A stretch of 64,000 nucleotides of DNA from Liolophura sinensis (Eukaryota; Mollusca; Polyplacophora; Chitonida; Chitonidae). Location of the stretch: contig NC_088298.1 in the NCBI RefSeq assembly GCF_032854445.1, positions 20,919,295 through 20,983,294 of the forward strand, written 5' to 3'. The notes below the pieces were generated by a model. That model was not told where the DNA came from, searched no databases, and saw only the letters and a list, made by a program, of their open reading frames with translations. Shown piece after piece: positions 108 to 39,800 of the stretch. Position numbers and translations under genes: made by a program. The stretch's first letter is position 1. Each line of letters begins with the position of its first letter.

Positions 108-3100
108 GTCATTTGGGAAGGAGCTGAAGGAGGATTATGTAGAGAAAATAGAGAAAAGTTTCCACACACTTTATCTCTCTGAAGGGTAAGTGGAAATATA
201 TAAAGGTTTCTACTCATTTATCTATCTGAACGGTGTGTGGAAATAGAGAAAAGTTTCCACACACTTTATCTGTCTGAATGGTAAGTGACAATAGAAAAGA
301 TTTTTGCACACTTTACCTGTCCAAAGTGTAGGTGAAATAGAGAAAGGTTTCTACACACATTATCTGTCTGAAGGGTAAGGGAAATATAAACTCTAAATAT
401 AATCCCGGATAGCACAGTTGGTAGAGCGTCCGCCTAGGGAGCGGTAGATCCAGGATCAATCCTTGGTCGAGTCACACCTAAGACTTTAAAAGAGGAAGTT
501 GTAACTTCCTCGCTTGGCGTTCAGCATGAAGGGGATAGTGCAACGACTGGTTGACCCGTATCAGTATAATGGCTCGGGCGGGGCGGCTTACTTGCCTTCG
601 GTAAGTCGTCTCAGTGATGCAGCACTAAATAAAAGAGCGGTGGAAATCCGTCCTGCAACAAGGAGGCACATTACACGTGCATGCACCCTAATGATTCCTT
701 CGTCGTCATATGACTGAAAAATTGTTGAGTACGACGTTAAACCCCAAGCACTCACTCACTCACTCTAAATATAATCGCTCACGATGCTTCAGTGTGGCAT
801 CACTTTGGAGGCATGGACTCGCCCTGACGCAAGAACACGCAGTATATGTACTAACCCCTAATGACTCCTGACTGAAAATTTTTCAAAGTACGATGTATAA
901 CCCCAAGCATACATACATATATATGCCAGCTTTGTTGTGGAAGGAAACTGGGCTGATCATCGACAGGTTGCTTCCAGACCTTCCCATGTACGACCAAAGA
1001 GGAACAGAAGCGTTAGGACATAAGATTAACGGGAAAATAAGGGAGTTAATTTAATTTACCGATCACTTATCTTACCATGTTCCAGAGGCACAATTCACAC
1101 CTCTTTCCTATAGAAACTTGGCAAGTTCACTGACGTCCGCATTATTTGTCTACTCTAAATTACTTTTTGTGAAACTTTTTTCAGACGCCCATGTTATAGT
1201 AAATGTGGTCATGTGGTACAGTAGAACTTTTTTACCTTTACCGATGAAAGAGGAGTTGGAGCTGGAAACTCCCCTATTGTTGTTAGGTGAATAGGATAGG
1301 GAATAGGGTTTATAATAGGGCACAGGTTTCATGTTAGATGTCGGAGATAATGGTGGTATGGTGTTTAGGGAACTGTGTAGAGCCAGGCGGAAACCCACAA
1401 CCATCCCCGGGTGGCTTGCAGACCTTCCTGTATATGACTGGAGAGGAAACCAGCATGAGCTGGACTTGAACTCACAGTGGTCACATTAATTAAGACATAA
1501 AATCCCAAGCACACACATGTACATACTGCCCACAAACTACACTGTCAAACACATGATTTTAACACTAACTGGAGAACTTTATGAAATGAGGTGTGAAGTC
1601 CCTCCATAAATCAGTTGTTTGTCTCTTTGAACAGGTACAACGCTGCTGCTTTGATTACAACAGAGGGCCTCAAAGTCCCATATCTGGACAAGTTTGCTGT
1701 GTCGATGAAAGCCCAAGTAAGATAGCTGGTTAGAGAGTCTGTCGAACAAATAATACAGAGCTGCTGTGTAACAGAAATGTTTAAAAACAAGGTCAGAGTT
1801 AACATGAATTTCTTCTGAGTATATTATAGAGCGTCCGCCTAGGGAGCGGTAGATCCAGGATCAATCCTGGGTCCTCGCTTGGCGTTCAGCATAAAGAGAA
1901 TAGTGCAACGGCTGGTTGATCCACATCAGTTTATTGGCTTGTGCGGGGCAGCTTACTTGCCTTCGGTAAATCGTCTCAGTGAAGTAGCACTGGATATAAG
2001 AGTGGTGGAAATCCGTCCTGCAACAAGGAAATGCACCCTAATGACTCCTTGGTTGACTCCATGACTGAAAAATTGTTAAGTATGACATTAAACCCCAAGC
2101 ACTCACTCACTCTCAGTATATTATGAATATTAACCGCTTTGCGGTAAACTATATATGTGCATGTATATAAAAAATCTATACATACAAATGTCTGTTTACA
2201 GTTACTGTTAGGCAGTACCAGTTTTACGGCTGAGCTGACACTAAAAAATCCAAAAGTGGAATAAAAACTGAAAGTCCATGTTTTTCTTTTGTTTCATCTT
2301 GATGTTTTGTATGATCGTCACGTTTTTCTTTTGTCTCATCTTGATGTTTTGTATGGTCGTCAAGTTTTTTGTTTTTTTCCTCATCTTGATGTTTTTTATG
2401 ATTGTCACATTTTTCTTTTGTCTCATCTTGATATTTTGTGTGATCGTCACGTTTTTCTTTTGTCTCATCTTGATGTTTTGTATAATCGTCACGTTTTTCA
2501 AGGCCTTGTGATCATTTAGATACTTGTACATGTATGTCATCACCAGGAAGAAGTGCAAACGATAGTCTACATTTTCCACAACTGAGGTTCTATTGTTATT
2601 TTTATTCTTTCCTCCGACAGACTTATCGGCATATAAAACAATAATTACGGTTGGTGTGGCCTTAGTTATTCTTGGACACACTATTACTATTACTTGATTG
2701 CAGTAAAATAAGTAAATAGATGGCAAATAACTTATAATTTTTGTTGTTGTCAACAGGGTGAGGGGACTGGCGAGATGGTCTGGGAATGTGTCCGCAAAGA
2801 ATTCCCGCAGCTGTTTTGGCGATCCAAGGGAGATAATCCCATCAACCCATGGTTAGTACCTCCTGGCTGGTTCAGATCTCTACAAGTGAAATCAAAAATG
2901 TGGGAATGCTAAATACAGATTGCTCAACATTAATAGTAGAATGTTCAGCATCTAATTAATTTGCTTCAAGTGTACAATTTTTTCCAATATGTAAGACTCC
3001 CGGATAATGTTCAAGAATTTCTTCCCACTTTTCTCTAATTTAGCTGACGTTTCACTTGAAAATTTAGTGCTTTTGGTGAAATTAAAATGACAATATTGTG

Positions 3101-4189
3101 AAGTTTCATGTCGTGAATTTTAGGTATTTCAAGAAGTCCGAAGGTAGCTGGAGTGATGGAAAATGGACCGTGTTCTGGTATGAAATTATCTTCTTGCACA
3201 GAGGCATTCTTCAGTTTTTGAACATTTTGATAGCTTATGTTGTGGCATAATTAAAATCAAATTTTGTGAAAATTTTTACTTACAGAGGGTGTATGTGTCC
3301 TGATAGTTAGCGTGCAAGCATAGCATAATCAACCAGGGACCTCTAGTCAATGCGGTTGCTGTAAGTCCAGCTCATGCTGGCTTCCTCTCCGATCGTAAGT
3401 GGGGAGATCTGCCAGCAACATGAAGAGGGTCGTGTGTTTCCCCGGAGCTCTGCCTGGTTTCCTCCCACCATAATGCTGGCTGCTGTCATACAAGTGAAAT
3501 ATTCTTGAGTACAGCATAAAACTGCAATGAAATAAATCAATAAATATACATGTAATATGTAAATGGGACTTTTTCCCAGAGGTCATACTGAAAATGAACA
3601 AAACTAAACTCGACCTTTCTGTTGGTTAGAAACATCAATTTGTAAATCATATATAACCAAACTGCATACATGTATACTGCTATTTGCCTAATGCATGTAC
3701 CTGTGATTAAGAATAAAAGAGACGAAGAGAGACAGAGAATCATACAGATGTGCTATTGTAGACACCTCACAGTATAGATTGGTTAAATAGTAATACTTAA
3801 TTAAACGTAAAGCATCATTAGCAAATTGATCAAGAACCTGGCACAAGGACAAAAAAATTGTGTTGACATATCATTACTTTTGTTTATTACTTTAGTACAC
3901 ACAGGAAAGCATGGCCTCTACAATGTTTATAAGAAACTGTCCAGGAATTTGCTGCAGTTTTTTGACATCTCTGGATTAGGTATCATTCTACCAGCCTACT
4001 GAACCATGCATGTGCTAAGTAACCATAATTATCAAAAGTAAAAATAAAAAACATTCATAATTCCAACTTAATAAAGAAATGAAAGCACTTTTTGTTTCAC
4101 TTTTGACCAGGTATGGAGTTGGTGAACATCATCTGTCGTCAGAGCTGATTGATTATGCGTTAAGACTAGAAAGTTCATTCGTTGACTGA
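108..4189 (+). CDS. NAGS: N-acetylglutamate synthase, C-terminal exons (5'-partial gene)
   Basis: Makes N-acetyl-L-glutamate from acetyl-CoA and glutamate in the mitochondrial matrix; the product activates ammonia-dependent carbamoyl-phosphate synthetase. Five exons join in phase: 108-185, 1635-1716, 2757-2851, 3124-3177 and 4111-4189 (stop TGA 4187-4189), giving about 128 residues. The product matches the end of the animal NAGS acetyltransferase domain as I know it: SFGKELKEDY, YNAAALITTE, PYLDKFAVS, then GEGTGEMVWE (the acetyl-CoA loop region), FPQLFWRSKGDNPINPWYFK and WTVFWYG. The tail after FWYG is short and ends in SSFVD. The upstream amino-acid-kinase-like domain and transit peptide lie outside the window. 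Splice sites are canonical GT-AG; the donor after 3177 (gtatga) is weak. The first exon's donor region is tandemly duplicated. Family assignment is very secure; exon ends are inferred from frame continuity. Confidence 0.94.
143..390 (+). repeat. Tandem copies of the NAGS exon 3' end plus splice donor (~47 bp x 5)
   Basis: The last 40 or so bases of the NAGS exon ending at 185, with the adjoining donor and about 10 intronic bases, recur four more times downstream. Copies start with agaaaagtttcc-like sequence near 150, 200, 245, 292 and 338. Donor-like gtaag survives at 186, near 280 and near 375; the other copies have decayed to gtgtg or gtagg. Copies diverge by roughly 10-20%, so this is an older array than those in CFAP65. 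Confidence 0.8.
391..776 (+). mobile_element. tRNA-headed SINE (family B), full length with target-site duplication
   Basis: The element spans about 405-762 and is flanked by a perfect 14-bp direct repeat, ctctaaatataatc, at 391-404 and 763-776. The head resembles a tRNA: a box A region (agcacagttggtagagcg) and box B-like gatcaatcc. The body carries the conserved ggctcgggcggggcggctta segment, and the tail is (CACT)n. A short ORF inside it is not a gene, because the same reading frame recurs with changes in every copy. It sits in the NAGS intron in sense orientation. Confidence 0.85.
800..915 (+). mobile_element. Diverged 3' fragment of SINE family B
   Basis: The segment shares the tail of the family-B SINE (cctaatgactcc, a ctgaaaa run, acgatgtataaccccaagca) but has lost the tRNA-like head. 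It is old and much diverged, and its boundaries are approximate. Confidence 0.5.
912..1012 (-). mobile_element. Fragment of tRNA-headed SINE (family A), antisense
   Basis: A partial copy of the commonest element in the window. It is recognisable by the order ggaaactgggc, caggttgctt, cagaccttcccatgtacg. Both ends are lost and the boundaries are approximate. Confidence 0.5.
1048..1205. repeat. Unnamed dispersed repeat, copy 1
   Basis: About 160 bases align with 63779-63955 near the right end of the window. Shared blocks include taatttaccgatcactt, tatagaaactt/tgtagaaactt, and cttttttcagacgcccatgt followed by tatagtaaat. No coding potential and no SINE head were seen. The family is unknown to me. 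Confidence 0.65.
1345..1495 (-). mobile_element. Partial SINE family A, antisense
   Basis: The segment contains the family-A landmarks in antisense order: aaacccacaaccatcc, gcagaccttcc, gagaggaaaccagcatgagc, tggacttgaactcacag. The last is the complement of the box B region. The tail is missing. Confidence 0.65.
1818..2124 (+). mobile_element. 5'-truncated SINE family B with target-site duplication
   Basis: A 10-bp direct repeat, agtatattat, at 1818-1827 and 2115-2124 flanks an element that begins inside the tRNA-like head (agagcgtccgcc) and ends in (CACT)n. About 40 bases are deleted internally relative to the copy at 405-762. 5' truncation with a target-site duplication is the usual signature of LINE-driven retrotransposition. 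Confidence 0.8.
2270..2505 (+). repeat. Minisatellite, 42-bp unit x ~5
   Basis: The unit combines ttttcttttgtctcatcttg with atgttttgtatgatcgtcac. It lies in the NAGS intron between 1716 and 2757. Because 42 is a multiple of three, both strands stay open over the array; that is a repeat effect, not a gene. Confidence 0.85.
3295..3548 (+). mobile_element. SINE family A, sense copy
   Basis: The order is a decayed tRNA-like head (gttagcgtgcaagc), a box B-like segment (gctgtaagtccagctcatgc), ggcttcctctccgatcgtaa, tctgcctggtttcctcccac, attcttgagtacagc and an aataaatcaataaatat tail. It lies in the last NAGS intron. Confidence 0.75.
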
Positions 4190-5317
4190 AGATTTCCAGA
4201 GGAACGTTCATGGATTGACAAACAACTGATATGCAGATCGGAAGGATGTCCATTAGCTGGTCCACAAGTGATTGAACACTCATTGGTCGAAAAGCAACTT
4301 ATTTGCAAATAGCGTATTCATTGGATGGGATACAGCTGTTCCATATTCATCAACTGACTGAAATGTGGAGTATGGATTCTCTTTGGCTGAAATGAAACTA
4401 ATTTGCTTATGAATATGTATAAGCTCAGATCCAGATGATTAGCATACTGTTGTTCATTGGTGAAACTACAGTTAATTTGCATATGGACATTTTAAGACTG
4501 CTGTGCGATCAATTTGCATACTAACACACCCAGTTGGTTCCACCACTTAGATCTTTATCTGATTGAGCTGGTATTTTATTTTGTTTCATGTTATGTTATT
4601 GCTACCTTTGTTAAGTGTTTTTTGTTTGACCTCTTAAAGACTAATTTACAAAGTAATATGCTTCCAAGAAATGTTATTTTTTTGTGCCATTTCCACAAGG
4701 CTCAACTTGATCTCGTGTCGCATCTAGTCACAGTTGTAATGGTTGGTAAAGTATGGTTTTATTTAGATTAAGAAGGCACAATAGTTTTATAGTTGTGAGG
4801 TTGGTTAGTGTGTTTGAGGGAAATCAGCCTACCTCAATCCTGTGCTAACTGTCAGATGGTAAAAATACTCAGCGACTCTTAGCAGCCTGGCACTCTTACC
4901 CATGGAGGGATATCTCAAGAGACGACAAAATCGTAAAAGTGAAAGATAGTCACGAGTACTGCGTAAAAACACCAATCAAATCAAACCAAAACAGTGGTTA
5001 AGGGTTGTTCACATAGCCTAATAAAAAAAGAGAAATAGCGGGTATCTCACATGGTGAATAATTAAACTTAGGAAAAATTAGGTTTTTCATTTGACAAATA
5101 GAACATTGAATTATTCACACGAGAAAATATGGAAATTTGGTGGCTCACCTGACAGGTTAGAAAAATCGAATTATTCACATAACAAAATACAGAAATTTGG
5201 TGGAGATCCTGTTACCACAACAAACATTGTCATTCACTGAAAATTTAAATGTGCCGTTCATATAAGTGTAGCTTAATGGTTGCAGTATGAAAAGTCAAAC
5301 AAACATATACTATGTAT
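4190..5317. other. NAGS 3' UTR and downstream unique sequence
   Basis: No gene is visible. The segment 4190-4530 contains several loosely related stretches around octamer-like atttgcat/atttgcaa (4295, 4398, 4473, 4510). I see no convincing polyadenylation signal close to the NAGS stop, so the transcript end is undefined. The remainder is AT-rich and featureless. Confidence 0.4.
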
Positions 5318-5540
5318 TTATTTTATGTGATTGGTGTTTTATGCCATAATCACTATTTCACTTGCACGATGGCAGCCAGTGTTGTGGTGTGAAGAAACCA
5401 GGCACAGCCTGGGTAAATAACAACCATCCGCAGGCTGCTTTCATGGGAAGCCAGCATGAGCTGGACTTGAACTCACGGCGACCACATTGATGGGAGGCTT
5501 CTGGATCATTGCATGGCGCAGGGGTGCTGACCCGCCTCCC
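5318..5540 (-). mobile_element. SINE family A, antisense copy
   Basis: It begins with an atttattt tail complement, then gattggtgttttatgcc, cagccagtgttgtgg, caaccatccgcaggctgc, gccagcatgagctggacttg, aactcacggcgacc. The tRNA-like end is degraded. A poly-C tract (about 5568-5585) follows it. Confidence 0.75.
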
Positions 5541-7516
5541 CAGACCCCTCTGCCCCCCCAACCCCTCTGCCCCCCCCCCCCCCCCAACTACACACACACA
5601 TGTACTCACACAAGTTGAGACAATAGCTTGTCAGAGGATATACCAGACGTTTTTATTTTGTTTTAAATTGTACAAAGTCAAGTGTAAAAGCAAGTTGTAT
5701 CTTCTGGGATAATTGTAGAGAGAGCCACTGAGAGACAGCAAATGTCTAAGGAAAGTCTTAATTTGTGAAAGGGGGCTCATTGACTAACAAAGGAACACAC
5801 CTAGTCTTTATAACTGCCAATTTGTGAAGGCATTTCTGCCTTACATATTCCCAAGTCAAGAGTAAAAGACTCATCAGGGGTTGTCTTGCCTGACACTGTC
5901 TAATTGTGTATTGTGCTTGGGTCGTAGGTTTAGGCGTTCAAGTTAATGAAAGAATAATGTTATCTGTAGCTGTGTCAGTAATGGGAAAACAATTATGTTT
6001 AGGTACACAGATTTGCGTGATTTTTTGAATTTCGATATATTGCAAAAAATATGAATGTTTCTACCATATCTATTTTTCTCAAACTTACACTCTCTTAATT
6101 CTTGCCTTTCAAACAGAATAGAAAGAATGAAAAAGGGGAGATAATCTAACCTTACTTCTAAATACGTAATTCTGATTCACTACTTTACCAGACAGCAGAT
6201 CAGAGGTTAAACATAAGCTCCGACTTGTTTGCTCAGTGTCAGTGTTAAGAATTAAAGTATATGTTAAGCTTGTAAACCTTTCTGAAATGCACAGTGTACG
6301 AGATATCCCCATGCATCGAACATATTCAACTGCTTGTTCAACTTTTGCCAGGAATTTGTCACTACGGGGGGAGTGGGGGGGGGAGTCATGGCAAGGGAGA
6401 GAACCGTGGAGTACATATGCATGTACTTGTGTTAAAATTTTAGGACTGAATGGCAGATGATAGCAGTGAAAGTTCAGATTGGCTCTGAATTCCGGTTTCA
6501 CACTGTGTCTTACCAATGCTGAATTTATTCGGTGGTTTCAGAATTTAGAGAATAGTATTGCTTTAGGAGTATTGCTCATTAATCTGATTAGAATTGAACA
6601 TCCTCACCCCCTTGAAGTGAATATTATGAAATGTGGAAAATATATATCTTGCCTTGTGATTAAAACAAACGATTAGCAAATGGATGATGCGAAATCGGAG
6701 ACATTACTTGTTATGACACATTATGTGTGTGTGTGTTTGTATGACTAGAGTATCTAAAATAATTCACTTGAAAGTGTCTGTATAAGATGTATAACTGTGC
6801 ACAAGTCTGCGTTTGTAACAACTTTGCACGAAATAGTTTGCAACAAGTTTGTGCCTTGCAGTTTTGCACAATACACTGTGGAACAACATCGCACAATGCA
6901 GATTGAAACAACTTGCTCAAATTATATGTAGTTTGCAGTAACTTTCTGTTTTCCAGTTTAGCAGTTCAAACAACACATCTGTGATAAGTTAATTTGAGCA
7001 GACTAGCTAGGTAATAAGTGAACAAAGTGTGTATATCAAGTAATACTCTTTTGAATTGGTAATAATAGGTCATTGGGTTCAAGGTACTTGTAAACTGGGT
7101 TCGTGAGTCTGGGGTGAAATGAGCTGTCAGAAGAAGTCTAATTAAAATACTTGTGGAGTCTTTGGATAGGAGGAATTTTCAATCAATGTGATTCATTGGT
7201 TAAATATTATGATCTCCCAAGGTTTTAAAGATCTGATTAGTTTTATTTCAGTGCACACAGTATTACTGTGTTAATGAAATATTCCAGAGGAATTAAATGC
7301 ATGAAACTGTTCAATTGCTCATTGGGCTGATATAAAATGATGTTCTGTCTCAGACATGTCTACCATGGAAAAAATGCTCATTGACTAAAAATAAAGGAAA
7401 GCTTAAAACTGGTAAAAGTTATTCATAGAAAAGACTTTGTTTTTTGTTTTTTTCTTTGATGAAGGCAATCTCTTTGAACTCTTGAATATGAGAATATGAT
7501 GGCTTAACATAGACAC
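5541..7516. other. Intergenic sequence without recognised genes
   Basis: AT-rich intergenic DNA. Short ORFs here have no codon pattern, conserved motif or splice context that I would trust. A (GT)n run is at about 6724-6738. A cluster of related ttgcacaa/tttgcac words at 6795-6900 may be a decayed short repeat. Confidence 0.4.
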
Positions 7517-7826
7517 TGCTATTGGCCACACACTTCAGTTTCGAGGACAAGACCTGAACGGAGAATTGCTATTGGCCACACACTTCAGTTTCGAGGACAA
7601 GACCTGAACGGAGAATTGCTATTGGCCACACACTTCAGTTTCGAGGACAAGCTCTGAACGGAGAATTGCTATTGGCCACACACTTCAGTTTCGAGGGCAA
7701 GACCTTTACGGAGAATTGCTATTGGCCACACACTTCAGTTTCGAGGACAAGACCTGAACGGAGAATTGCTATTGGCCACACACTTCAGTTTCGAGGACAA
7801 GACCTGAACGGAGAATTGCTATTGGA
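7517..7826 (+). repeat. Minisatellite, 50-bp unit x 6
   Basis: The unit begins tgctattggccacacacttc and ends gacctgaacggagaat. The six copies start at 50-base intervals from about 7518 and are nearly identical, so expansion was recent. Confidence 0.93.
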
Positions 7827-7891
7827 AGTGGAAGCATAGAGATTCTCTATGTCAAGAACATGTTGGAAAGTTTGACAGTTTTTTGCCAAAA

Positions 7892-8235: not shown

Positions 8236-9490
8236 ATACCCTACCCTGTGACAGTATTCTGACACCATCAGAACACCCTACCCTGTGACAGTATTCTGAC
8301 ATAGCACAACACCCTACCTTGTCACAGTATTCTGACACAGCACAACACTCTACCCTGTGACAGTATTCTGACACAGCACAACACCCTACCTTGTGACATT
8401 ATTCTGACATAGCACAACACCCTATCCTGTGACAGTATTCTGACATAGCACAACACCCTACCCTGTGACAGTATTCTGACATAGCACAACACCCTACCCT
8501 GTGACAGTATTCTGACATAGCACAATACCCTACCTTGTGACAGTATTCTGACATAGCACAACACCCTACCCTGTGACATTATTCTGACATAGCACAACAC
8601 CCTACCCTGTGACAGTATTCTGACATAGCACAACACCCTACCCTGTGACAGTATTCTGACACAGCACAACACCCTACCCTGTGACAGTATTCTGACATAG
8701 CACAACACCCTACCCTGTGACAGTATTCTGACATAGCACAACACCCTACCCTGTGACAGTATTCTGACATAGCACAACACCCTACCTTGTGACAGTATTC
8801 TGACATAGCACAACACCCTACCCTGTGACAGTATTCTGACACAGCACAACACCCTACCTTGTGACAGTATTCTGACATAGCACAACACCCTACCCTGTGA
8901 CAGTATTCTGACATAGCACAATACCCTACCTTGTGACAGTATTCTGACATAGCACAACACCCTACCCTGTGACAGTATTCTGACACAGCACAACACCCTA
9001 CCCTGTGACAGTATTCTGACACAGCACAACACCCTACCCTGTGACAGTATTCTGACATAGCACAACACCCTACCTTGTGACAGTATTCTGACATAGCACA
9101 ACACCCTACCCTGTGACAGTATTCTGACATAGCACAACACCCTACCTTGTGACAGTATTCTGACATAGCACAACAGCCTACCCTGTGACAGTATTCTGAC
9201 ATAGCACAATACCCTACCTTGTGACAGTAGTCTGACATAGCACAACACCCTACCCTGTGACAGTATCCTGACATAGCACAAACCCTACCCTGTGACAGTA
9301 TTCTGACATAGCACAACACCCTACCCTGTGACAGTATTCTGACATAGCACAACACCCTACCCTGTGACAGTATTCTGACATAGCACAATACCCTACCTTG
9401 TGACAGTATTCTGACATAGCACAACACCCTACCCTGTGACAGTATTCTGACATAGCACCATACCCTACCCTGTCACAGTATTCTGACAAC
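8236..9490. repeat. Satellite array, 36-bp unit x ~34
   Basis: The unit is cctaccctgtgacagtattc followed by tgacatagcacaacac, repeated about 34 times with few point differences (c/t in ccctgt, atag/acag). 36 is a multiple of three and the unit lacks stops on the minus strand, so long ORFs with a 12-residue period appear there. They have no start context, promoter or conserved counterpart, and I do not regard them as genes. The array merges at its right end into a related 46-bp array. Confidence 0.95.
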
Positions 9491-10402
9491 AACACAACAC
9501 CCCATAGGCCCTACCCTGTCACAGTATTTTGACAAGAAAAAAACACTCTAAAGGCCCTACCCAGTCAAAATATTCTGACACTAACACCACACCCCATAGG
9601 CCCTACCCTGTCACAATATTCTGACCCTAACACAACACCCTATAGGCCCTACCCTGTCACAGTATTCTGACACTAACACAACACCCCATAGGCCCTACCC
9701 TGTCACAGTATTCTGACATCAACACAACACCCCATAGGCCCTACCCTGTCAGAATATTCTGACACTAACACAACACCTCATAGGCCCTACCCTGTCACAG
9801 TATTCTGACACTAACACAACACCTCATAGGCCCTACCCTGTCACAGTATTCTGACACTAACACAACACCTCATAGGCCCTACCCTGTCACAGTATTCTGA
9901 CACCAACACAACACCCCACAGGTCCTACCCTGTCACAGTATTCTGACAAGAATACAACACTCTATAGGCCCTATCCTGTCACAATATTTTGACACTAACA
10001 CAACACCCTAAAGGCCCTACCCGGTCAGAATATTCTGACACTAACACAACACCCTATAGGCCCTACCCTGTCACAATATTCTGACACTAACACAACACCC
10101 CATAGGCCCTACCCTGTCACAGTATTCTGACATCAACACAACCCCCTATAGGCCCTACCCCGTCAAAATATTCTGACACTAACACAACACCCCATAGGCC
10201 CTACCCTGTCACAGTATTCTGACACTAACACAACACCCCATAGGCCCTACCCTGTCACAGTATTCTGACACTAACACAACGCCCCATAGGCCCTACCCGG
10301 TCACAGTATTCTGACACCAACACAACACCCCACAGGTCCTTCCCTGTCACAGTATCCTGACACAAACACAACACCCCATAGGCTCTACCCTGTCACAGTA
10401 TA
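9491..10402. repeat. Related satellite array, 46-bp unit x ~20
   Basis: The unit is cataggccctaccctgtcac, agtattctgacactaacaca, acaccc. It shares the ccctaccctgt-acagtattctgaca core with the 36-bp array on its left, but has a 10-base insertion and gtcac in place of gtgac. Copies are more diverged than in the 36-bp array. Confidence 0.92.
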
Positions 10403-21800: not shown

Positions 21801-24800
21801 TCCTGCTTCCTCACCTTATCTAGGGTCCCTTGTTCCTGGACCTGATAGGAACCTGTCACTCAGAGCTGGTTAAGCCGTCTGTCCTGCTGGCCAAGCACAT
21901 TGACCGCTACTGGACACATGTTCAGAGAGGCTTCTCCGTGTTCTCACCAGAGGTCAGTTTACATGTACACTGCCTGTCTTTCTAAAAGGGGCGACCTTGG
22001 AACCCTGAGGCTCATTCTGGCTGATTAGATTGATGTTCTTGACAACTGTTTTATTTATTTATTTATTTATTTAACGGCAGTCAATTTTATGATTTGAGGA
22101 ATCCCTGTGGTAAGTCACTGAGGAAATTTCATTTCAAGAGACACTTGAAAGAAAAGAAAGTTTCCACTTATATATGTACATACCTGTACTTCTGTTCTGT
22201 GTCACCCTTTCATTCTCACGGCAGATTTTGCCAGATTATTTACCATTCAGCTAAGTACTTATGGCTTAATGCTATGTCAGCAGTATTTCGGGCATACCCT
22301 AATTTTTGGGACAGATATATATGAGGTGCTGAAAGCAGAGTATTATATTTCTTTCGTAGCTTTTTAGAAAAGTAAAGATATGAGTATGTTGTTCATTAGA
22401 TCAACATACTGGTCTATGGTTCATATTAAATCATGTGAGAAAAAAGAAACTAAATATTCCTGCTACAGCTACATGTATATTGGCTAATAAGAGCAGACCA
22501 GGTGTCCCCAAAATGTGAAGAAATGGGGTATCATGGTAAAAAAACGATTTATTCATTTATTTGATTGGCATTTTACTCCATACTGAATAATATTTGTGGC
22601 CAGCAGTATTGCGGGAGGAAACCAGGCAGAACCCTGGTGAAACCCATCCACAGGCTGCTAGCAGACCGTCCCTTGTATGACCGGAGAGGAAGCCAGCATG
22701 AGCTGGACTTGAACCCTCAGCAGCCACATTTGTGAGAGGCTTTTTAGTCATTGAAAACATCTGTGAATCAGAAAACACACAGAGAAGGGAAGGATGGTTT
22801 CCACTTGGCTCGGAACAGTTTTCTCCAGCTATAAACCCGACTACCATCGGTGAAATATTCTCAAGGACATTTCATGAAGCCATATTAATATGAATAAATA
22901 ACTCTTTTTGTTTTTACAGGAACTGAATGAAATGATCAAAAATAAGACCTTAGAAGTGGATGAAACAGGAACCATTCTTCCAAAAGAGGTAAAAAATAAA
23001 AAAGAAAGAAAACAAAGCTGAGATGAAAATATTTTATACAATACCTTGTACAATCATCTAAAAATTTTAAACACAGAAGTAAAACAAAGTTTACTGCCAT
23101 GTCTTTTGTGATAAATTTACAATTTCTTGAATCTTTGCCACACCTGACCCATTACCAAGTATTAAATGTGGAAACTATTTTACTTCCTGTTGGATAAAGA
23201 TATAAATGTTGTGTTTTATTTCATTGATGCAGCTAGCATATTTCATTTTTTTGTTTTGATTTTCTTTTTAAACACTGTAACTGAATATTAAATAGTCATC
23301 TTATTGTAGTAATCATCTTTTCCATGGGTAAGTAGTCCTTAGCTGCACAGAATACTTTTGATTAGTTAAGGTTCAAATCCAGCTCTCTCTTGAATCCCGT
23401 GATACTTTTTGTGAAGTGCCTTGTGAAGGCCTTTATGTTACTGTCTAGTTTAGTTGTACAATATTCAAAATACATCATAAAACAATGGCTGAATAAATGA
23501 ATAAGTATTCTTTTCTTCTGATTGGTTATAGGGAGTAGAGGAGCATGCCCTTGTTGGCCCTGACAACATCTCTCCTATTGATGAATATTTCAATGACGGC
23601 TTTCACTGTGACGTTGTGGTAAGCTTATAGTGCAGTTGTATAACTTCATACATCAGTGACGGCTTTCACTGTGTTCACTGTGACTTTGTGGTAAGCTTAT
23701 AGTGCAGTTGTATAACTTTGTACATCAGTGACGACTTTCACTGTGACATTGTGGTAAGCTTATAGTGCAGTTGTATAACTTCATACATCAGTGACGGCTT
23801 TCACTGTGACATTGTGGTAAGCTTATAGTGCAGTTGTATAACTTCGTACATCAGCGATGACTTTCACTGTGACATTGTGATAAGCTTATAGTGCAGTTGT
23901 ATAACTTCGTACATCAGTGACGACTTTCACTGTGACATTGTAGTAAGCTTATAGTGCAGTTGTATAACTTTGTACATCAGTGAGGACTTTCATTGTGACA
24001 TTGTGGCAAGCTTATAGTGCAGTTGTATAACTTTGTACATCAGTGACGGCTTTCACTTTGACATTGTGATAAGCTTATAGTGCAGTTGTATAACTTCGTA
24101 CATCAGTGACAACTTTCACTGTGACATTGTAGTAAGCTTATAGTGCAGTTGTATAACTTCGTACATCAGTGACGACTTTCACTGTGACATTGTGGTAAGC
24201 TTATAGTGCAGTTGTATAACTTCGTACATCAGTGACGACTTTCACTTTGACATTGTGGTAAGTTTATAGTGCAGTTGTATAACTTCGTACATCAGTGACG
24301 ACTTTCACTGTGACATTGTAGTAAGCTTATAGTGCAGTTGTATAACTTTGTACATCAGTGAGGACTTTCATTGTGACATTGTGGCAAGCTTATAGTGCAG
24401 TTGTATAACTTCGTACATCAGTGACGACTTTCACTGTGACATTGTGATAAGCTTATAGTGCAGTTGTATAACTTCGTACATCAGTGACAACTTTCACTGT
24501 GACATTGTAGTAAGCTTATAGTGCAGTTGTATAACTTTGTACATCAGTGACGACTTTCACTGTGACATTGTGGTAAGCTTATAGTGCAGTTGTATAACTT
24601 CGTACATCAGTGACGACTTTCACTTTGACATTGTGGTAAGTTTATAGTGCAGTTGTATAACTTCGTACATCAGTGACAAACTTCACTGTGACATTGTGGT
24701 AAGCTTATAGTGCAGTTGTATAACTTCGTACATCAGTGATGACTTTCACTGTGACATTGTGGTAAGCTTATAGTGCAGTTGTATAACTTCGTACATCAGT

Positions 24801-27800
24801 GACGACTTTCACTGTGACATTGTAGTAAGCTTATAGTGCAGTTGTATAACTTCGTACATCAGTGACGACTTTCACTGTGACATTGTGGTAAGCTTATAGT
24901 GCAGTTGTATAACTTTGTACATCAGTGACAGCTTTTCACTTTGACATTGTGATAAGCTTATAGTGCAGTTGTATAACTTCGTACATCAGTGACGACTTTC
25001 ACTGTGACATTGTAGTAAGCTTATAGTGCAGTTGTATAACTTTGTACATCAGTGACGACTTTCACATTGTGGTAAGCTTATAGTGCAGTTGTATAACTTC
25101 GTACATCAGTGACGGCTTTCACTGTGTTCACTGTGACATTGTGGTAAGCTTATAGTGCAGTTGTATAACTTCGTACATCAGTGACGACTTTCACTGTGAC
25201 ATTGTGGTAAGTATATAGTGCAGTTTTATAACTTTGTACATCAGTGACGGCTTTCAGATTGTGGTAAGCTTATAGTGCAGTTGTATAACTTCGTACATCA
25301 GTGACGGCTTTCACTGTGACATTTTGGTAAGCTTATAGTGTAATTATATGACTGCGTTCTTCGATGACGGCTTTCACTGTGACATTGTGGTAAGCTTATA
25401 GTGTTATTATATAACTGCGTTCTTCAACGACGGCTTTCACTGTGGTAAGACTAGCACATTCTGTGACTATGTTATAGAACATCAAACACAAACCTCATAT
25501 ATGTTAATGACTCAAAATGAGATTAGTTGATGTCCTCAAGGCCCATTTACACAATATCTGCATGAAGAGAAATAGAACTATTTTAGTTTAGCTAAGCTGC
25601 ACTTATACTACATGTACAAGTAAGATAAGTAAGATAAGTCACAACATAGTTTATTGTTTTAGTACGGTTACGTGACTCTATGGTTTAAATGACAGTTGAT
25701 GACTAGCAAATCAGACACGCTGCTATATCAGAGTTAAGGTTTGTTTTAGTGGGGTTACGTGACCTCTATGGTCTAGTGACCAGTTGATGACTAGCAAATC
25801 AGACACGCTGCTGTATCAGAGTTGAGGTTTGTTTTAAATATTCATAGGACATCATTAGAAAAGATTGTGAGATCTTGAGCTGAATATATTTTGTAACACA
25901 GTCTTATGAGTTCATGAGTAACTTTAGTCAAAAACATTTAGTGAAATATCAGTGTGTTTTAGAAAAAATCTATCCCATTTTAATGTGATTCATAGATCGG
26001 AAAAAAAACAAAAAAAAAAAACAGCTGTGGCCTTGTGGTTAGAGTGTCTGCTTCAAAGTCTGAAGATCTGGGCATAGACTCTGTCAACATCCTGCCACAA
26101 GAAGCCGTTTTATATGTACATGCATCGAATAATTCGTCGTCATCATATGATTGAAAGATTGAAAAGTACAATGTATAAACCAAATCATATATTCATACAG
26201 ATCCCCAATATGACAAACAGGACATGTTAAGTTTTCCATTTCAGTTTTAACAACCAAATCGAAATATAGAACATAACATGCAGCATCATTTTGGAGTTGA
26301 AAAGTTTGTCTACTATTTACATGTGTCAAGCTATGACTTCTGATATAATTAAAGACGTACATCATATAGAGTAACACCAGAGCAGCGATGACAGGGTGAT
26401 CACTGGATAATGGGGATCAAACTCGTCAGTGTACCACAAGCAGGGGTGTTTTCTAGCCATTTATGTAAATGCAAAATCAGTCCTCCAGTTTGGCCATTAA
26501 AATTAATGTGTTTCATGAAACCCAGTTAGACCATAATGTTTTTGTGTTTTATGAGAATGTACCCTAGTTTTATGTTGATATTAACCTGTTAATTTGAAAC
26601 GTTTCCCTGGGTTGACTTCAATGCTGTTAATGTGTTACAGGAGAGCATACCTCATGTGAGTCTGGACACAGACAAGGCAGACTTTGGTAATTGTCAGAAC
26701 CTGAGGATTATAGAGGACAGGTATGTATACACATATTCCATAGTACAAGGGACTGGCCCTGATAGCACACTAGGTTTGGGAGCGGTAGCTCCTGGGTCAA
26801 TCCTGATCTAGTCACACCTAAGAGTTTAAAAGAGGAAGTTGCAGCTTGAAGGCGATAGTGCAGTGACTGGTTAACCCATATCTGTATAATGGCTCGGGCG
26901 GGGCGGCTTACTTGCCTTCAGTAAGGCATCTCAGTGAAGCAGCATTAGATAAAAGAGCTTTGGAAATCCGTCCTGCAACAAGGAGGCACATTACATGGAC
27001 TCTAATGATTCCTTCGTCGACATATACTGAAAGATTGTTAAGTATGACATTTAACCCCAAGCACTCACTCCCTCACAGTACAAGGCAGGCTGATGGCTCT
27101 CTGTAGGCCAGCCACTAACCTGTCAATACAACTGCTAAGAATGCTGTGGACTGCAAGTGGCGTCTTTGTGGAATGTTAGTGGTGTGGTTGTGGAACGCTA
27201 GTGGGGTTTTTGTGGAACGATTGTGGTGTGGTTTGTGGTGTGGCTGTGGAATGCTAGTGGGGTTTTTGTGGAACAATTACGGTGTTTTTGTGGAACGCTT
27301 GTGGTTTGTTTGTGGAACGCTGGTGGTGTGTTTGTAGAACACTTGTGGTGTGTTTGTGGAATGCTAGTGGTGTGTTTGTGGAACGCTAGTGGTGTATTTG
27401 TGGAACGCTAGTGGTGTGTTTGTGGAACACTAGTGGTGTATTTGTGGAACTCTAGTGGGGTTTTTGTGGAACGCTGGTGGGGTTTTTGTGGTACCCTAGT
27501 GGCATTTTTGTGGAATGCTAGTAGGTTTTTTTGGAATGCTAGTGGTGTGTTTGTGGAACGCTAGTGGGGTTTTTGTGGAACGTTAGTGGTGTATTTGTGG
27601 AACGTTAATGGGGTTTTTGTGGAACGTTAGTGGTGTGTTTGTGGAACGCTGTTGATGTGTTTGTGGAATTCTAGTGATGTGTTCATGAAATTTTTGTGGT
27701 GTGTTTGTGGAATGCTAGTTGTGTGTCTCTACAACCCCATTAGATTAAAGTTATGTAAGTGAATTCTGGTGGAATGCTGTGTGCAAGCTGTTAGAATCTG

Positions 27801-30800: not shown

Positions 30801-33800
30801 GGATAAATCTGTGTAGATTTTCGCACATTTGTAATTTACCTGGTTACATATATGACGTATATGCTCTGCCCCATCATTGTGACTTTGCGCTGCTGACATT
30901 GCAGTAGAACATTCAATGTCATTAAAATGACATAGTATGTCTCACTTTTGAGGGCTTAAGTTTTTTCACATGCAGCCGTTATTCCCAGGGCCTGGAGGGG
31001 CAATAATCATTGATATTCGGGTCTGTTTAGGTACACGTAGTTTAACATAAAGTTTATTGGAAATCAGTTGCCTTCTAAGTTCTCTGTGTTTCATGTCAGA
31101 GAAGGTTGGTCGTTTACTTGCAAAAGGGCTGTTGGTTTAATCCAGTGACTCCATCAATAATACTGGCTATGGTTGCATATGAAGTGAAATAGTCTGAATT
31201 CAGAGCTAACAACATCAGTCAATACAGTTTTTAAATTTAAGAGTGACAGTTATTAAAAAAGTAGATGGACATGTATGTTATCACCTTGTGTTTGTATTTT
31301 GCTGTATCTTTGTTAGTTGTGAAGTAATAGATGTAGATATTGTGCAACAGCTCTCAGTCTGTTCTATCTGTTCTAAAGCTGAAGCTTTCATAGCATTTAC
31401 CTACCCATAGTTTTACAAAATTTAGTTCAGATTTTTTTAATACGTCTTTTACTGTATTGTAACTTCTTTCATGATTATCTCCCTTGGACAGGATCTTCAG
31501 TACAAAACCATCCAAAGGACTTCTGACACAAGGGCACCTTGTGATTGTTGTAAAAACCCTCCCAACAGAGGTAGCCATATACAAACGCAAGCTGAAAATG
31601 CGCCTCAATGATTCTGAAAAGCATGATCAGGCAAGTCTCGTTATGTATGTTTTTTTTTTTTCATATTTATCACATTAAGACTTGGAGTATTGTTCAGATT
31701 GTGTCTGGTTGTCAGAACCAAGTGTTGTTTCAGTGAGGCAGTGCTAATATTATGTTGTCATGGAGACCGTTTTGCTAGCAAGGAGACACCTTCATAAAAT
31801 GTTGTTGAAAACGATGTAAAATTTAAGAAAAGGAAAATTACAAGCTACCAATTCAAACAACTGTACAGATCAAGTAACATTTCTTAGATCTTTTTAATGG
31901 TGAATGTTAATTGTTTTTTTCTGTAATAAGAAATTTCTGTTTTTAGGAGTTGGAGCTGTGGAGCTCTGCTGAGTCAGCAGAAGTGTCGCTGGAGTCCGAA
32001 GGTGTGATGTACCTTAAGCCCACGTGTATGGGCACCTTCTCCTTCAGGACATACAGCGTGAAAAATGTCTCCAGGATTCCTCTCAGGTGAGTCAGCAGAA
32101 GTGTCGCTGGAGTCAGAAGGTGTGATGTACCTTAAGCGTATGTGTATGGGCACCTTCTTCAGGACATACAGCGTGAAATATGTCTCCAGGATTCCTCTCA
32201 GGTGAGTCAGCAGAAGTGTCGCTGGAGTCAGAAGGTGTGATGTACCTTAAACCCACGTGTATGGGCACCTTCTCCTTCAAGACATACAGCGTGAAAAATG
32301 TCTCCAGGATTCCTCTCAGGTGAGTCAGCAGAAGTGTCGCTGGAGTCAGAAGGTGTGATGTACCTTAAGCCCACGTGTATGGGCACCTTCTCCTTCAGGA
32401 CATACAGCATGAAAAATGTCTCCAAAATTCCTCTCAGGTGAGTCAGCAGAAGTGTCGCTAGAGTCAGAAGGTGTGATGTACCTTAAACCCATGTGTATGG
32501 GCACTTTCTCCTTCAGGACATACAGCGTGAAAAATGTCTCCAGGATTCCTCTCAGGTGAGTCAGCAGAAGTGTCGCTGGAGTCAGAAGGTGTGATGTACC
32601 TTAAGCGTATGTGTATGGGCACCTTCTTCAGGACATACAGCGTGAAAAATGTCTCCAGGATTCCTCTCAGGTGAGTCAGCAGAAGTGTCGCTGGAGTCAG
32701 AAGGTGTGATGTACCTTAAACCCACGTGTATGGGCACCTTCTCCTTCAGACCGGCCCGGATAGCACAGTTGGTAGAGCGTCCGCTTCGGGACCGGTAGAT
32801 CCAGGATCAATCCTTGGTCGAGTCACACCTAAGACTTTAAAAGAGGAAGTTGTAACTTCCTCGCTTGGCGTTCAGCATGAAGGAGATAGTGCAACGACTG
32901 GTTGACCCGTATCAGTATAATGGCTCGGGCGGGGCGGCTTACTTGCCTTCGGTAAGTCGTCTCAGTGATGCAGCACTAAATAAAAGAGCGGTGGAAATCC
33001 GTCCTGCAACAAGGAGGCACAATTACACGTGCATGCACCCTAATGATTCCTTCGTCGTCATATGACTGAAAAATTGTTGAGTACGACGTTAAACCCCAAG
33101 CACTCACTCACTCACTCACGCACTCACCTTCTCCTTCAAGACATACAGCGTGAAAAATGTCTCCAGGATTCCTCTCAGGTGAGTCAGCAGAAGTGTCGCT
33201 GGAGTCAGAAGGTGTGATGTACCTTAAACCCACGTGTATGGGCACCTTCTCCTTCAAGACATACAGCGTGAAAAATGTCTCCAAAATTCCTCTCAGGTGA
33301 GTCAGCAGAAGTGTCGCTGGAGTCAGAAGGTGTGATGTACCTTAAGCCCACATGTATGGGCACCTTCTCCTTCAGGACATACAGCGTGAAAAATGTCTCC
33401 AAAATTCCTCTCAGGTGAGTCAGCAGAAGTGTCCCTGGAGTCAGAAGGTGTGATGTACCTTAAACCCACGTGTATGGGCACCTTCTCCTTCAGGACATAC
33501 AGCGTGAAAAATGTCTCAAGGATTCCTCTCAGGTGAGTCAGCAGAAGTGTCGCTGGAGTCAGAGGGTGTGATGTACCTTAAACCCACGTGTATGGGCACC
33601 TTCTCCTTCAAGACATACAGCGTGAAAAATGTCTCCAGGATTCCTCTCAGGTGAGTCAGCAGAAGTGTCGCTGGATTCAGAAGGTGTGATGTACCTTAAG
33701 CCCACGTGTATGGGCACCTTCTCCTTCAGGACATACAGCATGAAAAATGTCTCCAAAATTCCTCTCAGGTGAGTCAGCAGAAGTGTCGCTGGAGTCAGAA

Positions 33801-36800
33801 GGTGTGATGTACCTTAAACCCACGTGTATGGGCACCTTCTCCTTCAGGACATACAGCGTGAAAAATGTCTCCAGGATTCCTCTCAGGTGAGTCAGCAGAA
33901 GTGTCGCTGGAGTCAGAAGGTGTGATGTACCTTAAGCCTATGTGTATGGGCACCTTCTCCTTCAGGACATACAGCGTGAAAAATGTCTCCAGGATTCCTC
34001 TCAGATGAGTCAGCAGAAGTGTCGCTGGAGTCAGAAGGTGTGATGTACCTTAAACCCACGTGTATGGGCACCTTCTCCTTCAGGACATACAGCGTGAAAA
34101 ATGTCTCAGAATTCCTCTCAGGTGAGTCAGCAGAAGTGTCGCTGGAGTCAGAAGGTGTGATGTACCTTAAACCCACGTGTATGGGCACCTTCTCCTTCAG
34201 GACATACAGCGTGAAAAATGTCTCCAGGATTCCTCTCAGATGAGTCAGCAGAAGTGTCGCTGGAGTCAGAAGGTGTGATGTACCTTAAACCCACGTGTAT
34301 GGGCACCTTCTCCTTCAAGACACACAGCGTGAAAAATGTCTCAAGGATTCCTCTCAGGTGAGTCAGCAGAAGTGTCGCTGGAGTCAGAAGGTGTGATGTA
34401 CCTTAAACCCACGTGTATGGGCACCTTCTCCAGGACATACAGCGTGAAAAATGTCTCCAGGATTCCTCTCAGGTGAGTCAGCAGAAGTGTCGCTGGAGTC
34501 AGAAGGTGTGATGTACCTTAAACCCACGTGTATGGGCACCTTCTCCTTCAAGACATACAGCGTGAAAAATGTCTCAAGGATTCCTCTCAGGTGAGTCAGC
34601 AGAAGTGTCGCTGGAGTCAGAAGGTGTGATGTACCTTAAACCCACGCGTATGGGCACCTTCTCCTTCAGGACATACAGCGTGAAAAATGTCTCCAGGATT
34701 CCTCTCAGGTGAGTCAGCAGAAGTGTCGCTGGAGTCAGAAGGTGTGATGTACCTTAAACCTATGTGTATGGGCACCTTCTCCTTCAGGACATAAAGCGTG
34801 AAAAATGTCTCCAGGATTCCTCTCAGGTGAGTCAGCAGAAGTGTCGCTGGAGGCAGAAGGTGTGATGTACCTTAAACCCACGTGTATGGGCACCTTCTCC
34901 TTCAAGACATACAGCGTCAAAAACGCCTCCACGATTGTGACAACACTGATACTAAATCAGTGGACAGCTCAACCTTAACAGAAAAATTCTTATGTGGCCA
35001 TATAACGAGGATGTATCAATTAGAATGTGTCACTTTAAAAAAGTTAAACTTTAGGTGAAATACTGTCGTTCATTTCTGCGTTTGTAATGATGTAAATTTT
35101 GTGGGAAAACTTACCATATTAATCATACATTGTAAGAGACCAATGCATGAGCAGTCCAGCTTGGACCTGAATGGCTATTGGGCAGGAAAAGGCACTGTAA
35201 TGGACCAACAGCGAATGTTCTCTGGGGAGACATGTGAGGAAGACAGCCTCGTATGAAGTGACAGATCGGTACTCTGTAGTCACCAGCAACTGTGGTGAAA
35301 TTATGACAAAACAGTATGTTATTTAAAAATCATAATTATTTGTCTTGGTTTCAGATTTGAGTGGAAAATGAAGCATGCAGATGCCCAACTGTTGTCAGTT
35401 ACACCAGACACAGGACTGATTCAGCCCAATGAGACGCAGGTAAGATTCGGCTAAAACGGCTTATATATCGTTTGCCAATAATGTAGATGTAGCTTCCCTT
35501 CTCTCTCTCTCTTAATGTTCAGAGTGAATCCAAATGTTCTGTCAAAGATGCATTGAGCTACATAATTCGTTTGAGGTGTAGTGAACAGTTCATTGAAAGC
35601 TGCACCTAGCATACATAATTTGTTTTAGGTGTAATGAACAGTTCATTGAAAGCTGCACCTAGCATACATAATTCGTTTGAGGTGTAGTGAACAGTTCATT
35701 GAAAGCTGCACCTAGCATACATAATTTGTTTGAGGTGTAATGAACAGTTCATTGAAAGCTGCACCTAGCATACATAATTCGTTTGAGGTGTAATGAGCAG
35801 TTCATTGAAAGGTGCACCTAGCATACATAATTCGTTTGAGGTGCAATGAACAGTTCATTGAAAGCTGCACCTTGCATACATAATTCGTTTGAGGTGTAAT
35901 GAACAGTTCATTGAAAGCTGGACTTAGCATACATAATTTGTTTGAGGTGTAATGGACAGTTCATTGAAAGCTGCACCTAGCATACATAATTTGTTTGAGG
36001 TGTAATGAACAGTTCATTGAAAGCTGTACTAAGCATACATAATTCTTTTGATGTGTAAGTAACAGTTAACTGAAAGCTGTGCCGAGCAGATGATAAAGGT
36101 GGTAAGAGGCCTAGAGAAAAAGGAAAAAAAAAAGAGGTTGACAAATGAATTCTACACTATGATAATAATCATTGTACTGTTGTACAGAGCCACGTTTGGC
36201 AGTTTGCTCCACGGGAAGAGGAAAAATATGTGATGAAACCAACGCTGATTGTCTGGGGGCAGGGCAAGAGCACAGGCTCTTCTGGTGGGAAACGCAAACA
36301 GTTCATCGTCAGAGCAATAGGAGAGGGAACTGTGGGTGAAATCAAGGTAAGAGCCATCCGGGTTGTGCTGAGGGAAATATCAACGTGAATCGTTATATAA
36401 ACTCTGTAGCCTCAAACCCTCTCTCACTGCTTGTGGGGTCTTGTTGACAATAAGCGGTCTATGGCATTAAGACCACTTGTCTTCCACCAGTACAGTGTGC
36501 ATACATCAAATGTGGGAAAGATTGTCAGTAATTTAATTACCAACATTTATGGTGCGATAATTACCTGTGGTTTCCTTCGCCCATAAAACTGACCACCATC
36601 AGTATAAGTGAAAAATTCTTGAGTATGGTGTAAACAACAATCAAATAAATAAATATATAAACCTGTGCGGAAAGAGAAAGTCATTTTATGAAAGCAAGTA
36701 GGTTACTTTCTTTGCTTAAAAAATTCTATGAATTTATTTTGGGGAACTTAAATCTAGGAACCGTAACAAAAGATACGTTACATTTGTATGATTTCAAACA

Positions 36801-39800
36801 TTTAATTGTTTTGTGTGTGCTTGTTATTGTTAAAATATTGTCTTCTTTTCATTTGTGCCTTTGCAGTGATGTTTTGTGGGGCACTGCAACAGAATAATGA
36901 TCAATTTAACTTGACAGAATTCATCATTGTGCAAGAGAAGATACTGTGCTACTTATCACTTGACAAGAGTGTTTGATGCTGACTCTATGATAACGTTCTG
37001 TTTCCTAGTGCGATGAGAGCTATGTCAATTTTGGTGACGTCGTTGTTGGAAGCTCTGCCGTCAAACAGCTGGTTATTTACAACAACAGCAACTGTGGTCT
37101 TCACTATTTCCTTCATGTAGATCAGACAGTAGACGAGGAGGCATCTTCTGCCTGTACAGAATTCGGCAAGAGCCAAGAACCAGGTACAGTACCTACAGCA
37201 GCTAGAAATGCGCAAACTTATAGGAGTCGTTCCAGAGATTTTAAATATAGTTATTATTTCTTCTGCCTGTGGTTTTTAACATTATTTGGATCATACCATG
37301 CTGGTATACTAAAGAGTCATTCCTATTGCTAAAACATTTATAGTACTGTCTCATTAGTGAAGGACACCATATATGACACCCATGAAACAACAATTATAAG
37401 CTGACACTGAGGCCCAGTTGTTCAAAACTTGTGTATGACTTAATATCACATTTAACTTTAAACCAAGTCTTCAAGTCTTCAATTTTGTACTTAGCCTAAA
37501 AAAAAATTTGTACCAGTGTATGAAATAAACTAATACACCTGCTGTTATACTTTGACTGTATCGGCTGCTGAGTTTGGCTAAAGTTTTAAATACAAAATAT
37601 GACTTATTACCAGTACCAGTATTAGGTAAAACACTTCTGTACAACTGGGCCCTGAATGACCAATGATTGCCTGAGGGCTAAACTTGTCAAGCTGAGTGCC
37701 AAGCAAAGATGCATGATATACAGTACAATAGCATGAGGCTATGTGGGATGTGGGAACAGGCTAGGCTTCAGTTGGACTCCTGCAATGTGAATGAAATAAT
37801 GTTGAAACACGGACATTTTTTAGTAAATATGATCTGGATTATGTGAGGTTGAAAGGATTATGCTTTGCACTTTAGGTAAATAACCTAAAATTTGACCCAG
37901 GGCTAACTTGCGTTTTGAGGCTTGTTTGAAATGTAGGATGATGCCCTATCTGAAGTAATATTTTATGATATTTGTTTACCTCAAAAAAATGAACTCGTGT
38001 GGGTGAAATTTTATGTCATTTGTGTCATAAAAACTTGTCTTTCTCTACGAATGGCCACATGGGTGTTTACATTTTCTCTGTGTCTTTTTTTCTGTTAGAC
38101 CTAACAGAAGGTGTGATACCTGCAATGATCACCTGAGTTTATAACTTACCTCTCTGTTTGTCAGTTTTCCAGCTCTCTGATTAGACATAACAGAAGGTGT
38201 GATACCGGCAATGACCACCTGAGTTTATAGCTTACCTGTCTGTTTGTCTGTTTTCCACCTCTCTGATTAGACATAACAGAAGGTGTGATACCGGCAATGA
38301 CCACCTGAGTTTATAGCTTACCTGTCTGTCTGTCAGTTTTCCACTTCTCTCATTAGACATAACAGACGGTGTGATAGTGGCAATGACCACCTGAGTTTAT
38401 AGCTTACCTGTCTGTTTGTCTGTTTTCCAGCCCTCTGATTAGACATAACAGAAGGTGTGATACCGGCAATGACCACCTGAGTTTATAGCTTACTTGTCTG
38501 TCTGTTTTCCAGCTTTCTCATTAGACATAACGGAAGATGTGATACCTACAATGACCATCTGGGTTTATAACTTACCTGTCTCTCTGTTGTCCAGCTCTCT
38601 CATTAGACTTAACAGAAGGCACAATACCTGCAAGGGCCAGACAGTTGATCACAGCCACTGTGCGACCAACCAAGAGAACTACCTACCAGTTTGCCATCTC
38701 TTACAAACTTATCACACCAAATGGTAAGTTTGCTGATTACGTCAGTTCAAACTGGCCAAGGACTTTCTAAGCTGTGCGTGTTTTTTTTTTCCTAGCTGCA
38801 GCTAAGCAGATCAATAAATTGGTTGTGCTGTCCGTCAGTCGGTCAGGATTTTGATATCCTGACTTTTAACATACGACCTAGATGTAATACTACACAAAAC
38901 CCTATATTTGTCCAATTGAGGTGATTACTTGATGAGCTCACAGGTATGAGGGTGGTAAATCAATGTGTGACAAGGTAATTAACACTCAAAATGAGGCAGG
39001 TAGGAGGAGGGGGTCAAGTTTGGTGTGAGGAATATACAATATATATGGGCCAGGTGGTTAATGGAGTAGCAATGAGTTCAAGTCCACCTCATTCTGGTTT
39101 CCTCTTGGGCCATATGTGGGAAGGTCTGCCCGCAACATGCGGATTTTCGTGGATTTTCCCTGGACTCAGCCAGGTTTCCACCCATCGTAATGCTGGTTGG
39201 CATCTTATATGTGAAATATTCTCGAGTACGGCATACAACACCAATCAAATAAATCAATAAATATAATATATAATTGAGAAGAGTAAACAGTATCTTGTTA
39301 GGCCAATATTTCAGCTGTCAACATGTTGCAGGATATCTCAGGTATTGGAAATTTATTCATGTTTTAATACATTGTAAACATCTACACCTGTGAAGTTTTC
39401 TGTTTTATGGATTGTGTAAAAGGGACTTTTTCCCAGAGGTCATCCTGAAAATGAACGAAACTGAACTTGACGTTTCCGTTAGTTACAGACATCAGTTTGT
39501 AAATTTTTGTAGTCATATTTCTTTCTCCATAAAAATGATAATTGCCATTGTAAACTTCAGGATGATGTTATTTTTTGATTTCTAAACAATATCTAAAACC
39601 ACTCACATGGTTACCATACAATGGCCTTCGTTTTTGTCAGACTGTTGAAATATCGAAAAGTATTAAAACATAATGGAGTTTTATTCACCTGTGTTCACTT
39701 AGATTTTAAACATGAAACTAAAACTTGCTTGATTGGCATATTTACAGTTTCACCTACCAATTTATTTCATCGTAGTTTGATTTAATTTTGTCCTTGCCCG

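Follow-up and report, generated by a model that had tools for sequence, protein, structure and literature searches.

Minisatellite arrays straddling exon-intron junctions in genes of the mollusc Liolophura sinensis

Why should the intron beside a coding exon be filled with tandem copies of the edge of that exon, splice site included? This question is raised by a 64-kb stretch of the genome of the mollusc Liolophura sinensis (C4:20919295-20983294 of a single 609-Mb assembly; hereafter the window), in which four such arrays are located in two adjacent genes, NAGS and CFAP65. The analysis presented here indicates that the arrays are, very probably, "mirages", i.e. minisatellites originating from a tandem duplication which straddled an exon-intron junction and subsequently expanded.

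Structure of the arrays in NAGS and CFAP65

Tandem arrays identified with Tandem Repeats Finder (TRF) and merged occupy approximately 15 kb of the window. Inspection of the DNA together with the TRF units revealed that in four of these arrays every unit contains an exon edge plus its splice site, as had been claimed in the original prediction, made from the letters of the window. Three of the arrays copy a donor and one copies an acceptor, which is borne out by the sequences of their units (Table 1). In each case the true exon is intact and is located at the outer end of the array, the decoys being near-identical to it. The boundaries reported by TRF may conceal this arrangement: the array of exon 13 starts at 23674 according to this program, yet the copying begins within the exon, near position 23590.

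The identity of both host genes was confirmed by homology. The translated exons of NAGS align with the human protein (4k30) over the 185/186 junction, while those of CFAP65 are backed by mouse CFAP65 in 9ijj. A small gene finder, which uses assumed splice-site weights and codon usage taken from the homology-supported exons, produced a phase-consistent CFAP65 model comprised of 39 exons. The exon numbers of this model are 1-2 below those of the original prediction, which are retained in Table 1 (weak exons may be missing from the model), and the positions agree. Two weak window exons, at 26641 and 38796, were dropped from later counts.

Table 1. Coordinates of the junction arrays, of their host exons and of an inserted element (window positions, or positions within the dynein loci)
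Feature	Position	Strand	Remarks
NAGS exon	110..185	+	5' part outside the window or uncertain; true donor GT at 186; human NAGS homology across the junction
NAGS donor array	146..390	+	unit ~47 bp, ~5 copies, exon end plus donor; TRF, DNA reading, edge alignment
CFAP65 exon 13	23532..23618	+	true donor GT at 23619; gene model, mouse CFAP65 alignment
CFAP65 exon-13 donor array	23590..25444	+	~28 copies of a 63-bp unit, beginning with the exon edge itself
CFAP65 exon 20	31947..32086	+	true donor GT at 32087; homology, gene model
CFAP65 exon-20 donor array	31970..34936	+	unit 118 bp, almost wholly exonic; ~25 periods (TRF)
SINE-like element interrupting the exon-20 array	~32751..33117	+	comparison with the copy at ~406-770
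CFAP65 acceptor array	38091..38619	+	6 copies of an 86-bp unit, the last being the edge of the true exon
CFAP65 exon 24	38595..38723	+	true acceptor AG at 38593-38594; homology, gene model
Donor arrays of dynein loci	L003 1187; L010 334, 9718; L013 4749; L018 6686; L019 913, 8272; L044 705		gene orientation
Acceptor arrays of dynein loci	L010 5462; L018 5622		gene orientation
SINE, short interspersed nuclear element.

A search of the genome with the units of the three CFAP65 arrays yielded 29 matches for the 63-bp unit (including the true edge, i.e. 28 decoys), 23 for the 118-bp unit and 6 for the 86-bp unit, all at their own place. No match to any of them was found elsewhere by this search, in which only the best candidates are scored and common words are skipped. 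Within this scope, the three units do not recur at other genomic places, as those of a dispersed repeat or of a transposon-borne satellite would. The original prediction also stated that the other arrays of the window bear no relation to exons. This holds for those located in the modelled parts of the two genes: of the 14 intron arrays there, 10 align to no neighbouring exon edge.

The SINE-like element within the exon-20 array is nearly identical to its counterpart at the beginning of the window (both with a CACTCACTC tail), and a further partial copy was seen by eye near positions 1828-2110. Since the copy at 32751 lies within the array, it is younger than the array. Between NAGS and CFAP65 there are two adjoining large arrays (8238-10401; approximately 2.2 kb in total) with units of 36 bp and 46 bp, which have CCCTACCCTGT...ACAGTATTCTGACA in common. 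Towards its 3' end, the CFAP65 region is interrupted by approximately 200 consecutive N (~55400-55610).

Junction arrays in dynein heavy-chain and other genes

We also analyzed a sample of 25 loci of 10 kb each at dynein heavy-chain genes, which were taken from matches to DHC_N2 and AAA_6 blind to the presence of arrays (the locus at C1:14.95 Mb, whose matches lie within a long open frame, was left out). For each locus, TRF and the gene finder were run, and the edges of nearby exons were aligned to the array units. We excluded (i) predicted exons scoring below 12, (ii) arrays with a period below 17, (iii) an array inside an exon (L009 4292) and (iv) predicted exons inside arrays (L018 5347 and 5438; L019 1264 and 1475). 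A weak acceptor match with a score of 14 (L013 8438) was counted as not straddling.

This analysis revealed 10 further junction arrays (Table 1), which brings the total for the window and the dynein loci to 14 (11 donors and 3 acceptors). Junction arrays are not special to the window: 13 of them are located in 306 complete introns (268 of dynein loci and 38 of the window); the intron of the remaining array is truncated by the end of its locus. Their units are 31-118 bp in length, with up to ~38 periods by TRF. At 8 of the 10 dynein-locus arrays the host exon is dynein by homology (those of L003, L013, L018 and L019, and two of the three of L010). The exon ending at L010 9718 has no Pfam match, and the exon at L044 705, of which merely 9 bp are copied, is a gene-finder prediction within a dynein locus. 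A match of one dynein exon to the Pfam family TcdA_TcdB_pore (E value of 0.027) was below the threshold and was taken as chance. In L010 (C1:95575000-95584999) a single dynein gene carries three junction arrays, two donors and one acceptor, within 10 kb.

Another set was obtained with the donor octamer AGGTAAGT. Of its 675 close triplets, 100 listed places were grouped into 20 arrays of C1, and the 5' flanks of these arrays were examined. Three of them have a homology-supported exon on the 5' side, i.e. (i) Branch (L029), (ii) GH31 (L034; Pfam) and (iii) RNA polymerase III RPC1 (L032). At another three (L037, L039 and L041) the gene finder placed an exon without a Pfam match at the array, and the L037 and L039 exons gave no useful PDB match either; the remaining 14 flanks yielded no convincing exon at the array. 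In L034 (C1:26352400-26353600) the GH31 exon continues into an array of 39-bp donor units, several copies of which are crossed by an open frame, and each retained copy would therefore add 13 residues.

Outside these sets, a cluster of haemocyanin beta-sandwich domains (PF14830), a family characteristic of molluscs, occupies C8:37880506-37891931 (~11.4 kb) and agrees with a molluscan origin of the genome. The cluster comprises eight consecutive matches, located within open frames of 429-529 codons each.

Chance seeding, junction preference and other explanations

The most likely origin of the arrays is as follows. A short tandem duplication would happen to straddle a junction. Exon edge and splice site would both be contained in the duplicated block; hence the outermost copy would remain continuous with the body of the exon and keep the reading frame, and all further copies would fall on the intron side. 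Provided that the spliceosome uses the site contiguous with the exon, the protein is unchanged, and so the event would be tolerated. Duplications at junctions should thus be nearly neutral, and arrays arising inside exons would be lost. As is usual for minisatellites, expansion and homogenization would probably proceed through slippage or unequal exchange. Since arrays abound in this genome, junction arrays are common in it.

It was claimed in the original prediction that four cases in about 40 kb point to a common mechanism rather than to chance. As a null model we dropped a founding unit of the length of each array at random into its own intron, with the arrays collapsed, and a unit covering an exon edge with 7 bp or more to either side was scored as straddling. 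In the window alone, 4 of 14 arrays straddle an exon edge, compared with 1.8 expected (P=0.07), or 2.4 (P=0.15) with the SINEs removed, and the four cases by themselves therefore do not exclude chance. Repeats common to several loci (8% of intron) were removed before the pooled tests. Pooling the window with the dynein loci gives an excess of about twofold (14/68 straddling arrays against 7.4 expected, P=0.008); the dynein loci alone yielded 10/54 against 5.5 (P=0.034), and a preceding test based solely on the extents reported by TRF yielded 7/44 against 4.4 (P=0.13). As approximately 15 kb of the window is array and exon edges are dense, random seeding is bound to produce some junction arrays, and it can explain that such arrays exist.

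The excess is concentrated in multi-copy arrays, a class defined by a unit of ≥30 bp and ≥3.5 copies, whose limits were chosen after seeing the data. Within this class 13 of 28 arrays straddle an exon edge, against 4.6 expected (P=7e-5), as do 9 of its 20 arrays from the dynein loci, against 3.4 expected (P=0.001). Arrays with a unit of at least 30 bp and fewer than 3.5 copies show no excess over chance (1/14 against 1.8). As the two- to threefold excess is found in multi-copy arrays only, something about exon edges may favour expansion. Three points weigh against an origin by chance and tolerance as set out above: (i) these two factors do not explain the multi-copy count, (ii) correct splicing is presumed and the length of the arrays is that of the assembly, and (iii) most exon edges outside the window were placed by our own gene finder with its assumed splice-site weights.

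A more specific proposal is that exon-intron junctions favour the expansion of arrays, though not their birth, by a factor of two to three, leaving several per cent of introns with rows of decoys, of which some would already be in-frame mini-exons. The cause might be R-loops, breaks coupled to splicing or transcription, or microhomology between the donor consensus and the exon. The part of the original prediction that invoked a common mechanism may survive to the extent of the multi-copy excess, and the slippage, microhomology repair and R-loops that it named are not separable from one another. In addition to this excess, non-straddling arrays are more frequent than expected within 35 bp of an exon (14/54 against 8.2, P=0.02), but this proximity is not significant at 20, 60 or 100 bp. 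Relative to their total number, donor octamers form close triplets genome-wide more frequently than do their reversed controls (675 for the 26,660 occurrences of AGGTAAGT against 509 of 29,208 of its reverse; 1,363 of 24,497 of AGGTGAGT against 490 of 18,845 of its control); however, large arrays contribute most to these numbers, to which no P value is attached. At least one of the listed arrays of the reversed control (C1:14407258) carries the donor-like sequence AAGGTAA and may itself be a junction array. The copy-number cut is post hoc, and the result without it is the weaker one. Moreover, the excess is sensitive to intron length: if the usable intron is 1.5 times shorter than counted the overall excess disappears (P=0.13), and if it is 2.5 times shorter the multi-copy excess disappears as well (P=0.16). 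A two- to threefold expansion preference at junctions is therefore possible but unproven, and we regard it as rather doubtful. The same doubtful standing applies to the proposal that exon sequence is array-prone in general, being GC-richer and less often of low complexity, with the junction arrays as the survivors of selection and the splice site irrelevant. The GC content of junction units is indeed higher than that of other multi-copy units (0.44 and 0.39, respectively; P=0.018), which alone could favour junction units and also detracts from a preference for the junction as such. The unit of the array at 31970-34936, almost wholly exonic, points in the same direction, whereas several other units are mainly intronic, e.g. 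that of 38091-38619.

If the copies were functional, as alternative exons or as regulators of splicing, their splice sites might be expected to be conserved. GT or AG is kept in 107 of 137 recognizable copies of 12 junctions (L010 9718, which yielded no copy at the threshold used, and L044 705 being outside this count). At the 11 junctions whose consensus contains the site, the GT/AG positions mutate like the others (21/248 against 410/5952, P=0.31), so that splice dinucleotides are kept no better than other positions. They decay no faster either, and selection against decoys was rejected on this basis. The acceptor array of L010, in which AG is kept in 4 of 13 recognizable copies, has a consensus without AG and so stands outside the mutation-rate test. 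The decoy splice sites show near-neutral decay, with no visible purging. The exon-20 array could be read in favour of a function. Ten of its copies contain CAG/GACATACAG...CTCAG/GTGAGT, i.e. an acceptor-like CAG and a donor which enclose an in-frame block of 39 nt, located behind a 76-79-nt intron, that keeps the frame and reads TYSVKNVSRIPL. These copies could act as in-frame mini-exons of 39 nt, as predicted from the sequence. Among 14 exon-20 copies there are 31 substitutions, distributed 3/10/18 over the three codon positions; counted as distinct variants the distribution is 3/3/10, and 8 of 16 are synonymous, compared with 23% expected without mutation bias. However, the variants are spread between copies, which makes codon counts weak, and coding selection was rejected because the signal is too weak. 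A functional role of the copies thus appears improbable. Still less probable is an artefact of assembly. Arrays of this kind are hard to assemble, but their copies differ by several per cent in patterned ways, similar arrays are present in many unrelated genes, and one array is interrupted by the SINE-like element.

Relation to the mirages of amphioxus and significance

Mirages were described in amphioxus, in Adh3, the globins BflGb6 and BflGb9, troponin C and PGBD5 (PMC3087553, PMC3902484). They are presented as minisatellite-like duplications of the 5' or 3' exon-intron boundary, many copies of which contain AG/GT and in which the true exon is intact; the units are of 10-72 bp in Adh3 and 150-160 bp in BflGb6, splicing of the globins is reported as undisturbed, and two BflGb6 haplotypes contain 6 and 3 units (PMC3087553). 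The same structure is discussed for PGBD5 (PMC3902484). The arrays of L. sinensis resemble them in that (i) their units span the exon-intron boundary and contain the splice site, (ii) both 5' and 3' boundaries are duplicated and (iii) many, but not all, copies keep AG/GT. The amphioxus cases were described gene by gene in a cephalochordate, whereas here the host is a mollusc, the units are of 31-118 bp and a sampled rate is available. The arrays thus share all the mirage features that we tested; the kind is known from amphioxus, and the novelty lies in its occurrence in a mollusc and in the sampled rate. We found no mollusc report of junction arrays in the literature, mostly open-access; a gastropod paper (PMC3862624), in its passages on introns, mentions simple repeats and not junction arrays.

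Two other systems are related. In human segmental duplications, minisatellites with units of ~30 bp and about four copies are reported at exon-intron boundaries, with 162 alignments before manual inspection and 27 intron modifications after it (PMC2812944). These repeats were found by comparing recent paralogues and alter gene structure, unlike the present arrays, which lie in single genes and leave the exon unchanged. An established model explains intron gain by the duplication in tandem of segments containing AGGT, with ATP2A1, the 24-bp AGGT repeats of fission yeast and potato RdRp as examples (PMC4974935). Like the segments of this Rogers-type intron gain, the exon-20 copies are tandem duplicates that carry a splice-site consensus, holding AG followed by GT plus an internal acceptor-like site; in Rogers-type gain, however, a new intron is made, whereas the copies described here are located inside an intron that may be older.

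The junction arrays fit the model in which tandem duplications are the raw material for new introns and exons. As the real site can have dozens of near-identical neighbours, they also constitute a natural test of the choice made by the spliceosome. Their occurrence in 13 of 306 sampled introns suggests that mirages are no peculiarity of lancelets and may be present in other genomes rich in minisatellites as well. Should the two- to threefold junction excess hold, the cause of expansion at these places becomes a testable question, and mirages would constantly and widely supply new exons and introns.

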